From positions 124,001 through 188,000 of the forward strand of contig NCGJ01000001.1 of NCBI GenBank assembly GCA_002281555.1: DNA of 64,000 bases. Reading direction: 5' to 3'. A program made the position numbers and the translations under genes. The DNA is from Hydrogenophilales bacterium 28-61-23 (GTDB lineage Bacteria; Pseudomonadota; Gammaproteobacteria; Burkholderiales; Thiobacillaceae). The notes below the pieces were generated by a model. The model had not been told where the DNA came from. It saw only the letters and a program-made list of their open reading frames with translations, and made no database searches. Of the stretch, positions 16,096 through 18,801 are shown in pieces. Positions within the stretch are counted from its first letter, which is position 1, and each line of letters starts with the position of its first letter.

Positions 16096-16869
16096 CTAGC
16101 GCAGTTGGCGTACCCGCTCGAACAGGCAAATCGCAGCGGCGGTGGCCACATTGAGCGACTCGACCTTGCCCGGCATCGGGATGATGAAGGGCTGAGCGGC
16201 GACGCAGAGTTGCGCCGACAGTCCGGCGCCTTCGTTGCCGAAGGCGAAGCCGACCCGGCCGCGCAGATCGAGATCGAACAAAGCCGCCGTGGCGCCCAGG
16301 CTGGCGGCGTAGACCGGCCCGCCGAACCCCTGTGCCAATATTGGCAAATCGGCGTTTTCATGGATCGCCAACTGAAAATGCGCGCCCTGCCCGCCACGCA
16401 GGCATTTTGGCGACCAGGCTTCGCAACAGCCTTGCGACAGGTGCACCGCATCCGCGCCCGCCGCCGCCGCGACGCGCAGGATCGCGCCCAGGTTGCCCGG
16501 GTCCTGGATGTTTTCCAGCAACACGATGCAGTTGTCCTGCTGCTGATTCGAAACCCGCGGAATGTCGATCACAGCCAGCACGCCGACCGGCGTTTCGACC
16601 GGAGTCAACGCATTGAAAAGCGGGGCTGGCAGCACACAGGCAGGCGTATCGGGCAAGCGCCGACACCAGTCCGCCAATTCACTCGCCGCGGCAGTCTCTG
16701 AAAACACCAGCTGGCGAAACGACACGCCGGCATCGACTCCAGCTTGCAGCAAGTGCGGGCCATCCAGAAGGGTGTGACCGGTTTTCCGGCGCGCTTTGCG
16801 CTCACCGGCCAAGGCGAGCCACTCTTTATAGGTCGGGTTGTCGCGCGAACTGATCGGCTTCATCGGCAC
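16096..16869 (-). CDS. SpoU/TrmH-family RNA 2'-O-methyltransferase
   Basis: This 257-residue enzyme should methylate a ribose of tRNA or rRNA using S-adenosylmethionine. The three SPOUT motifs are present: LENIQDPGNLGAILRVAAAA, FAFGNEGAGLS and IPMPGKVESLNVATAAAI. An N-terminal substrate-binding region (about 1-95) precedes them. The target nucleotide cannot be assigned, as RlmB-like and other SpoU enzymes share these motifs. Its start overlaps the end of the upstream pentapeptide-repeat gene by 10 bases, so the two are probably translated from one mRNA. Confidence 0.88.
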   Translation of the reverse strand: MPMKPISSRDNPTYKEWLALAGERKARRKTGHTLLDGPHLLQAGVDAGVSFRQLVFSETAAASELADWCRRLPDTPACVLPAPLFNALTPVETPVGVLAVIDIPRVSNQQQDNCIVLLENIQDPGNLGAILRVAAAAGADAVHLSQGCCEAWSPKCLRGGQGAHFQLAIHENADLPILAQGFGGPVYAASLGATAALFDLDLRGRVGFAFGNEGAGLSAQLCVAAQPFIIPMPGKVESLNVATAAAICLFERVRQLR

Positions 16870-17729
16870 GCACCGATGGAACCTTCCGCGCAGACGCGAC
16901 CGTCATTCCAGGTCGCTTTGTCGAGTTTTGCACTTTCGAGCCGGGTGCCAGTGAGGTTGGCCGCGGTCAGAACGGCATACCGCAAATCCGCGCCAGTCAG
17001 ATCGGCACCCGATAAATCAGCGCCGGAAAGATCTGCACCGGACAAATTGATGTTGGCAAGCTCCGCATTGCGCAAGCTCGCATTTTTGAGCGAGGCGTAA
17101 GCCAGATCGGCTCCATTCAGGCGGGCATCGTCGAGTTGCACCTTGTCCAGACGCGCATTGGCGGCCTTTGCGCCCGGCTGCGAAAAACCTCGTTTGTCGC
17201 ATGCGCTCCAGTTGAGTCCATCCGCGAAACCCGCCGCACAATCGCTCGCCTTGCCGATGCCGGCTTGAATCGGTTTGTCGTGCTGCCCGAACCACACCGA
17301 AACGCCAATGGCGGCAATCAAACCCATCGCCAGAAGCACGACCCAAGGAGATGTACGTTTTGATTGTTCGGCTTGCAGCAAAGCCTGTGTGCGTAAGTGG
17401 TCTCGTACGATCGAATTCCGAGTTGCGGCATCTTGCGCGGGGTCGTGTACGACTTCCGTGACTGTCGCGTCTTCATGTAGCCATTTTTTTCGCGCCTGGA
17501 TTTGTTGATCGCGCCAGGATGCGGACTCTTCGGAATCGCCACCGCTCACGGGTTCGGGGTCTTCCTTGAACAGATTGCTCTCTTCGATGCTGATCCAATC
17601 GGCTTCATTGAGGCTGATTTCCCATTGCGGATCGACCTCTCCCGATTTCAGTGCCGCCTCGATCTGGGGCGTAGGAAACGGGCCAAAAACCTGATTCTCG
17701 TGCCTGAGATACCAAAATGAATGCGTCAT
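16860..17729 (-). CDS. GYF-like domain / membrane helix / pentapeptide-repeat protein
   Basis: The protein (289 aa) has three parts. Residues 1-52 resemble the bacterial GYF_2 domain (WYLRHENQVFGPF ... WISI). A charged linker and one transmembrane helix (128-147) follow. Residues about 180-275 are pentapeptide repeats, with the run ADLSGADLSGADLTGADL giving a right-handed beta-helix. The N-in topology would put the repeats outside the cytoplasm. Four cysteines in the C-terminal part may form disulfides there. No function is known for this combination. It overlaps the RNA methyltransferase gene downstream. A terminator-bearing RNA lies just upstream. Confidence 0.75.
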   Translation of the reverse strand: MTHSFWYLRHENQVFGPFPTPQIEAALKSGEVDPQWEISLNEADWISIEESNLFKEDPEPVSGGDSEESASWRDQQIQARKKWLHEDATVTEVVHDPAQDAATRNSIVRDHLRTQALLQAEQSKRTSPWVVLLAMGLIAAIGVSVWFGQHDKPIQAGIGKASDCAAGFADGLNWSACDKRGFSQPGAKAANARLDKVQLDDARLNGADLAYASLKNASLRNAELANINLSGADLSGADLSGADLTGADLRYAVLTAANLTGTRLESAKLDKATWNDGRVCAEGSIGACR

Positions 17730-17791: not shown

Positions 17792-17822
17792 AAAAAAAAA
17801 GCCCGGTCGAGAGCGACCGGGC
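17792..17822 (-). terminator. Rho-independent terminator of the small RNA
   Basis: GCCCGGTCG and CGACCGGGC form a perfect 9-bp stem with a CUCU loop. On the minus strand it is followed by nine consecutive T residues (17800-17792). The plus strand has no T-run after the hairpin, so it works for minus-strand transcripts only. Confidence 0.88.
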
Positions 17823-17903
17823 ATAAATCCACCTGTTAAGGAGGATGGAGGAGACGACATTGACAAATGTTTGCTGCCAAACCGGATGCCGCTGTCATAA
17901 GTA
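17792..17903 (-). ncRNA. Candidate small RNA with anti-Shine-Dalgarno tract
   Basis: A free-standing transcription unit is visible on the minus strand between two divergent genes. A promoter lies at 17910-17938. About 112 transcribed bases follow, ending in a strong intrinsic terminator with nine U residues. Folding by eye gives a 5' hairpin (outer UGACA/UGUCA, inner GUUUG/CAAAC with loop GCAG). A pyrimidine-rich stretch follows with two CCUCC motifs, including CCUCCUUA, the same as the 16S rRNA anti-Shine-Dalgarno core. The terminator comes last. A 20-codon frame starting at an AUG inside it might instead make this a leader/attenuator for the pentapeptide gene, whose ATG lies 63 bases further on. 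Confidence 0.55.
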
Positions 17904-17909
17904 TTTTCT

Positions 17910-17938
17910 AATATACGGATTTATTAATCAACCATTAA
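17910..17938 (-). promoter_or_regulatory. Sigma-70 promoter of the small RNA
   Basis: On the minus strand the -10 box is TATATT (five of six consensus bases). The -35 box is TTAATG (weak), with a 17-base spacer. An alternative -35, TTGATT, lies closer but at poor spacing. Start of transcription would be near 17903. The surrounding 60 bases are strongly AT-rich compared with the genome. Confidence 0.5.
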
Positions 17939-18039: not shown

Positions 18040-18801
18040 ATGAATACCGACCTGATACTTGCGCTCAACCAGTACTTTGAATTGGTGCATGCAAATAGTG
18101 ACGCTCTCCGCATGGAAGCGTACTTGTTGCGGTATCAGGTTTATGTATTGGAAACGGGCTTCGAAAACGAGACAGATTGCCGAAGCGGGACCGACCAACA
18201 TGGCAACGCAATGTATTGGGAGCAGGATGGTTTCGATGAACGCTCGGACCATTATTTACTGCGCCATCGGCGTACCGGCGTCTATGCGGCGACCGCGCGC
18301 TTGATTCTGCCCAATGCGCTGGATGTGCAAGTGCCTTATCCGATCGAGTTGCATTGCTCGCTTGACCAACGCATAACCGACGCCGACATCAGAAGCCAGC
18401 TCGGAGAGATATCGCGTTTTGCGGTCTCCAAGGTATTCAAGCGGCGTATCGGCGAAATCGGCAAACCCTCCGGTGTCGCGGAAGACATCCAGATCTATTT
18501 TGAAGAAGACGAACGTCGTGTCCTGCCCCATATCTCCTTAGGATTATTCGCGGCCGTGATGCGCATGGTCCATGACCACAAGATCACCCATTGCTACGCG
18601 GTCATGGAACCCGCCTTGTTACGTTTATTGAGTCGCTTCGGCATGGTATTCAACCGGATTGGCCCGGATGTCGAATATCACGGTAACCGTGTGCCGTGCA
18701 TCACGACTGTCGAAGAGGCATTGCCCAGCATAAAAGCAGTCGCCCCATCGGTGTGGGAACTCATCACCAATCGCGGAGAATTGCTGCAAGATTACCGCTG
18801 A
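18040..18801 (+). CDS. PEP-CTERM/exosortase system-associated acyltransferase (GNAT-like)
   Basis: This 253-residue protein matches the family of acyltransferase-like proteins that travel with PEP-CTERM/exosortase systems. These are related to the GNAT fold and autoinducer synthases. The evidence is the N-terminal LLRYQVYVLETGFE, the core RHRRTGVYAATARLIL with an acyl-CoA-site look, and ISRFAVSKVFKRR. The family's reaction is not established. No exosortase, PEP-CTERM protein or exopolysaccharide gene is seen nearby, so it stands alone here. No good ribosome site precedes the ATG. Confidence 0.72.
   Translation: MNTDLILALNQYFELVHANSDALRMEAYLLRYQVYVLETGFENETDCRSGTDQHGNAMYWEQDGFDERSDHYLLRHRRTGVYAATARLILPNALDVQVPYPIELHCSLDQRITDADIRSQLGEISRFAVSKVFKRRIGEIGKPSGVAEDIQIYFEEDERRVLPHISLGLFAAVMRMVHDHKITHCYAVMEPALLRLLSRFGMVFNRIGPDVEYHGNRVPCITTVEEALPSIKAVAPSVWELITNRGELLQDYR

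Follow-up and report, generated by a model that had tools for sequence, protein, structure and literature searches.

The minus strand of the window (the whole 64-kb stretch of DNA that was analyzed) carries a genuine gene for a small regulatory RNA from a previously catalogued bacterial family; it is located between the divergent ORFs 16860–17729 (−) and 18040–18801 (+). In a search with Rfam covariance models, the RNA matched RF02278 (Betaproteobacteria_toxic_sRNA) with 54 bits against a cut-off of 50 and an E-value of 4.6e-8; the alignment covered model positions 1–64 of 64, and no Rfam family except RF02278 reached its cut-off in the 64-kb window. This match makes the gene a further member of a known family, and we hold with high confidence that it is a free-standing RF02278 gene (toxic sRNA, double-hairpin RNA, S17-like) for an RNA of ~105 nt, whose CU tracts would repress several mRNAs with the aid of Hfq. 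A preliminary description of this DNA had placed a minus-strand unit between two divergent genes and read it as a free-standing sRNA with the layout of a trans-acting repressor. Both flanking ORFs were found as described, and the RF02278 match, the covarying stems, a promoter of its own, and the persistence of the unit at loci without the neighbor gene indicate that the window RNA is probably a free-standing trans-acting sRNA with anti-Shine-Dalgarno tracts.

Anatomy, fold, and conservation of the RNA

The features of the gene are listed in Table 1. Of its two neighbors, ORF 16860–17729 (−) gave a Pentapeptide match (PF00805, E 1.9e-28) and a GYF_2 match of 21.5 bits, which is under the cut-off of 25.8 for that domain, and ORF 18040–18801 (+) was assigned to the PEP-CTERM/exosortase-associated acyltransferases (TIGR03694). 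The RF02278 score exceeds the cut-off by just 4 bits, and the window RNA has non-standard pairs at four places of the Rfam hairpins, two outer and two inner. The genome of the window contains one copy above the cut-off, and its next-best match has 20.8 bits.

Table 1 Features of the small RNA gene in the window
Feature	Positions	Strand	Basis or detail
−35 element TTGATT	17926..17931	−	TTG there in 56/56 sequences of the host's taxonomic family
−10 element GAAAAT	17903..17908	−	Alignment of upstream regions; 17 nt from −35
Conserved block ATATTAGAnnATnCTnAT around −10	17897..17914	−	Palindromic in many relatives, weakly in the window
Predicted transcription start	17895..17898	−	Distance from the −10 element
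5′ stem-loop	17854..17898	−	Predicted fold; outer stem AUGACA (17898–17893) with UGUCGU (17859–17854)
Exposed anti-Shine-Dalgarno tract 1, UCUCCUCC	17847..17854	−	Invariant in 57 aligned sequences
Hairpin 1 holding tract 2 (AUCCUCCUUA, 17846–17837)	17827..17846	−	Predicted fold
RF02278 match, also extent of a putative short form by analogy with S17	17793..17856	−	Covariance model
Intrinsic terminator	17792..17822	−	9-pair stem 17822–17801 (8 G-C pairs), U tract 17800–17792

With a start near 17898–17895 and an end in the U tract at 17792, the RNA would have a length of about 103–107 nt. The predicted fold of the segment 17905–17793 has an energy of −40.9 kcal/mol, whereas shuffled sequences average −24.06 (sd 3.11); this corresponds to a z-score of −5.41, and 0 of 200 shuffles were as good. 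A 5′ hairpin, as proposed in the preliminary description, appears in this fold, with changes on both sides at four of nine stem pairs in the genus; in the window itself, pairs 7–42 and 8–41 are mismatched. The same description had two exposed CCUCC motifs. Both are present, at 17851–17847 and 17844–17840 (−), and the first is indeed exposed, with a mean unpaired probability of 0.83 for tract 1 in the predicted ensemble, but the corresponding value for tract 2 (CCUCCUUA) was 0.29, being mostly paired within hairpin 1. The GGUGGAU arm of this hairpin is contested by two pairings, AUCC/GGAU (0.76 in the predicted ensemble) and the Rfam register UCCA...UGGA, in which the loop of the hairpin holds the second CU tract (0.23). 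At one genus locus (L026, genome G001), the CU tracts are kept and the hairpin-1 3′ arm reads ACGAGGAT in place of AGGTGGAT, a change with which the Rfam register is disrupted whereas AUCC/GGAU can still form.

The weight first given to CCUCCUUA as the core of the 16S 3′ end did not hold: it occurs in just 2 of 17 genus sequences, and the longer match to the 16S end therefore looks incidental, its UUA being rare in the genus. CCUCCU is invariant in those 17 sequences, as is GTCTCCTCC-(A)ATCCT across the alignment of 57. In three relatives, the 16S end reads GGATCACCTCCTTTCTAGA, and a search for the 16S end in the window's own genome did not find it.

The terminator with nine U's was confirmed as a 9-pair stem followed by nine T. 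A terminator scan of 901 bases found one site with a shuffled mean of 1.0, that is, about one by chance; the weight of the terminator thus comes from its conservation and not from the scan count. In 17 genus sequences, 100% of the terminator cells were paired, and two of eight counted pairs had changed on both sides.

Conservation was assessed at two levels, with "family" counts referring to the taxonomic family of the window and "genus" counts to its genus. Sixty-one family loci were considered (the window, L008–L026, L037–L057, and L119–L138), 57 of which were in the alignment, and 17 genus loci were aligned separately; the aligned loci were the best scorers of each search and not a random draw. 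L021 and L024, whose GTATTAG variant was missed by the pattern, L026, with no core-pattern match and the changed hairpin arm, and L043, a copy without the block, were left out, and ten weak genus matches (L027–L036, ≤40.4 bits) also stood outside the alignment. Both the CCUCC tract and the terminator, whose conservation in close relatives had been suggested as a check, are retained throughout the alignment of 57. Pairing in the genus set amounts to 97.5% of cells (94.2 on average in shuffles). Of 24 pairs, 6 have changed on both sides, as against a mean of 1.9 in shuffles, none of which (0 of 500) reached that number; four of these pairs lie in the 5′ stem and two in the terminator. The count of further pair types was no better than in shuffles (10 versus 9.2; 178 of 500), and pairing fell to 30–42% when the partner was slid by one to three columns. 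Six of the seven pairs of hairpin 1 never vary in this set, so covariation says nothing on its pairing.

Promoter and the spread of the family

The conserved promoter is TTGATT-17-GAAAAT (17931–17903) instead of the TATATT with 17-base spacing originally assigned. In all family sequences with enough upstream DNA (56/56), a GAnnAT-like hexamer has the TTG exactly 17 nt ahead of it. These upstream sequences were placed using the block ATATTAGA, so selection accounts for part of the invariance of this block; the TTG played no part in the placement. TATATT (17915–17910) lies seven bases upstream of GAAAAT and corresponds to the conserved block that immediately precedes the −10 element. If TATATT were the −10 element, its −35 element would be TTAATG (17938–17933), and the conserved place is the TTG 17 nt before GAnnAT. 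A plain sigma-70 consensus scan found no site at the sRNA promoter because TTGATT and GAAAAT each match only 4 of 6 consensus positions (TATAAT for −10).

The block ATATTAGAnnATnCTnAT matched once in 64 kb and in 0 of 100 shuffles. In many relatives, a TATTAGA-N4-TCTAATA inverted repeat surrounds the −10 element; it is degenerate in the window. The palindrome pattern TATTAGANNATNCTAATA, perfect or near-perfect, gave 64 matches in 61 of 117 family genomes and 0 in the backward control, and it had no match in the window's own genome. Eight of the 64 matches were judged from coordinates to be away from the sRNA; no regulator gene was recognized in the ORFs listed for four of these (L195, L193, L190, and L191). 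The block around −10 may be the operator of a regulator.

Among its relatives the RNA is present almost everywhere: RF02278 was matched by 22 of 23 genus genomes at E ≤ 0.01 (19 above the cut-off) and by 111 of 117 family genomes (101 above the cut-off), including 59 of 59 better assemblies. Matches at E ≤ 0.001 were found in 244 of 399 genomes of an order sample, with 144 above the cut-off. Among 14 named control genomes, none matched at E ≤ 0.001, one did at 0.01, and thirteen did at E ≤ 10, none of them above the cut-off. Two or three tandem RF02278-like copies were observed at G379:C3:217943-218301, G261:C83:5201-5393, G400:C3:141779-142057, G293:C27:1129-1336, and G526:C1:1107730-1107994, resembling a sibling sRNA arrangement. 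In addition, four of the weak genus matches (L028, L029, L030, and L035; 29–40 bits) lie, by eye, directly after an ORF ending in ...TIGKRETRP and have CU tracts and terminators; they may represent another sRNA, encoded where the gene ends (3′).

Matches also extended beyond the order. In a class sample, 103 of 369 genomes matched RF02278 at E ≤ 0.001, three of them within the order and above the cut-off; outside the order, as given by the kinship column, there were 100 of 365, all below the cut-off (best, 48.7 bits). In a phylum sample, 40 of 398 genomes matched; the 24 above the cut-off were all in the order, and six genomes of other classes matched weakly. A model built from 25 sequences of the window's family with the promoter included (R1) matched 99 of 369 genomes, 97 of 365 outside the order, with a best E there of 4.0e-11 (rough E-values, run without control genomes).

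It is unlikely, although not negligible as a reading, that the outside-order matches are chance CU-rich hairpins with terminators and that the RNA family is confined to the order; this reading concerns the wider spread and leaves the identity of the window RNA untouched. All 100 genomes fall under the Rfam cut-off, the 27 best loci (L063–L089) being sub-cut-off matches with cores such as ACTCCTCCATCCTCCTTTGGTGG; 14 of the 27 lack the promoter block; and the R1 model had no controls. However, no control genome matched at E ≤ 0.001, and the other 13 loci carry the block with TTGAC at 17 or 18 nt, a combination seen in 49 of 5400 windows drawn at random from these loci. The block was found at 28 of 45 distinct outside-order loci in all, a count that we set aside as a test because part of these loci was chosen by the promoter-containing model. 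For the loci that share the promoter, homology is the better reading of the sequences, and the weakest matches may be due to chance. By contrast, the other families of the order were represented by 31 loci, 28 of which could be placed, and none of the 28 has the block (best scorers, not a random sample).

We favor, with moderate confidence, a broader reading in which the toxic sRNA called "betaproteobacterial" is a regulator of greater age that occurs in several orders of the class, with its own promoter TTGACA-17-GAnAAT in a conserved, often palindromic block (TATTAGAnnATnCTnATA) that is common to the window's family and homologs in other orders and absent from the 28 placed loci in the other families of its own order. 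One dedicated regulator may control an anti-Shine-Dalgarno brake in many lineages, and in the window's family the two CCUCC tracts would compete for one GGUGGAU arm, one tract staying free. An excerpt of a Herbaspirillum paper (PMC7011215) states that these RNAs have so far been found in betaproteobacteria only. One such RNA is annotated in one Aeromonas strain (PMC8780938, in the part consulted), so a spread beyond the order is not wholly unreported.

Relation to the downstream gene

The terminator lies ~60 nt ahead of the GYF/pentapeptide gene (16860–17729, −) on the same strand, and this gene is kept downstream at 11 of 17 genus loci with 1 kb of downstream sequence. An attenuator or leader, in which the terminator sets read-through into that gene, had been mentioned as a possibility and would fit this arrangement. 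We consider it very unlikely. Sixty family loci were used for a neighbor test, and among the 55 with at least 1 kb downstream, the gene was there in 26 and missing in 29, where the promoter, CU tract, and terminator nevertheless remain. In one genus of the family (g10), the gene was found at 0 of 15 loci, and all 16 loci of this genus that were read have TTGACA, the GTCTCCTCC tract, and the terminator. An unsystematic look also noticed no conserved alternative partner of the terminator stem. Persistence without the GYF/pentapeptide gene indicates that the unit is free-standing. In another genus (g9), the GYF-like part of the downstream gene gave two or three successive matches beyond the sRNA (L045, L047, L048, L051, and L053).

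A tiny leaderless mRNA of 20 codons, starting at the ATG at 17898 and stopping at the TAA of CCUCCUUAA (17836), is most improbable: the open frame 17836–17898 exists in the window, and an excerpt on the long S17 form of Bordetella describes a putative 32-residue ORF there (PMC11722255), but many relatives have ATAAC where the window has ATGAC and their 5′-loop lengths differ by numbers indivisible by three (both by eye), and the region varies by base-pair compensation.

Proposed mode of action and comparison with known RNAs

As a free-standing sRNA gene, the unit would work as follows. RNA polymerase would start near 17896 from TTGATT-17-GAAAAT and end at the U tract at 17792, giving an RNA with the 5′ stem-loop, the single-stranded UCUCCUCC, the small hairpin with the second CCUCC tract, and the terminator with its U tail. 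Cleavage just past the 5′ stem may yield a short form of ~64 nt, by analogy with S17. With Hfq, the CU tracts would pair with several mRNAs at their Shine-Dalgarno sequences and reduce translation of these mRNAs, which in turn would damp growth or metabolism under some condition; the window RNA probably prevents the initiation of translation on many mRNAs. The window's genome has two Hfq matches above the cut-off, which makes Hfq binding of the sRNA possible. In a duplex test with 39 mechanical ORFs of the window, 9 reached −10 kcal/mol or better, and several of these were no better than shuffled tracts.

The cuckoo RNAs of Rhodobacter carry a CCUCC-type motif, CCUCCUCCC, in the sRNA loop. The similarity to these RNAs noted earlier stands as a likeness of idea and not as kinship: CCUCCUCCC is absent from the predicted window RNA, which reads CCUCCAUCCUCCUUA, and RF02278 is the one Rfam family that reaches its cut-off in the window. 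Closer counterparts are the double-hairpin RNAs ncS03, ncS05, ncS27, and ncS62 of Burkholderia cenocepacia, which have the core sequence, two hairpins, U tail, and exposed CU tract as in the window. Unlike these, the window RNA has a predicted long form with a covarying 5′ stem and favors the AUCC register in hairpin 1, and its genome holds one copy versus four in B. cenocepacia; its gene also carries the promoter block, which the 28 placed loci of the order's other families lack. In the part of PMC5688073 consulted, a longer form of 92 nt with a site of processing is described for ncS27 as well, overexpressed ncS27 attenuates the growth of B. cenocepacia, an antisense against the CU-rich 5′ end of ncS27 has the reverse effect, and 55–80% of the predicted interactions of these double-hairpin RNAs fall around start codons. 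A review, likewise consulted in part, assigns ncS27 a regulatory role in shutting down metabolism when nutrients are lacking (PMC10987360).

S17 of Bordetella pertussis, as described in excerpts of PMC11722255, resembles the window RNA in having a long form, a CU tract right after the 5′ structure, a 17-nt promoter spacer, and a nine-T terminator. It occurs as 190-nt and 67-nt forms (S17L and S17S), the short one being a cleavage product that begins from the CU tract. S17 is recovered with Hfq in co-precipitation, and a sigma-54 activator is among the genes that it represses. Both ncS27 and S17 work at ribosome-binding sites by way of their CU-rich tracts. By contrast, the 5′ part before the RF02278 match is ~42 nt in the window RNA versus ~123 nt in S17L, the −10 and −35 letters of S17 differ from those of the window, and processing of the window RNA is putative. 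Since S17 left exponential growth of E. coli unimpaired according to the same excerpts, the label "toxic" need not apply. The Neisseria RNAs NmsRA and NmsRB are alike in carrying two anti-Shine-Dalgarno motifs that lower the translation of metabolic mRNAs, but they form a tandem pair, unlike the window gene (excerpt of PMC5362039); this likeness is one of description and not of family assignment.

The newer part of these results is the strongly conserved promoter, together with the likely relatives outside the group after which RF02278 is named. They provide a corrected anatomy and a promoter for an RNA family whose upstream control is little described, and the matches of a single-family model in 97 of 365 sampled genomes outside the order are a concrete ground for rebuilding the RF02278 model. 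The conserved operator-like block would permit looking for the regulator of a general translation brake, and the occurrence of these RNAs outside the order, together with a shared promoter, is what most merits follow-up.
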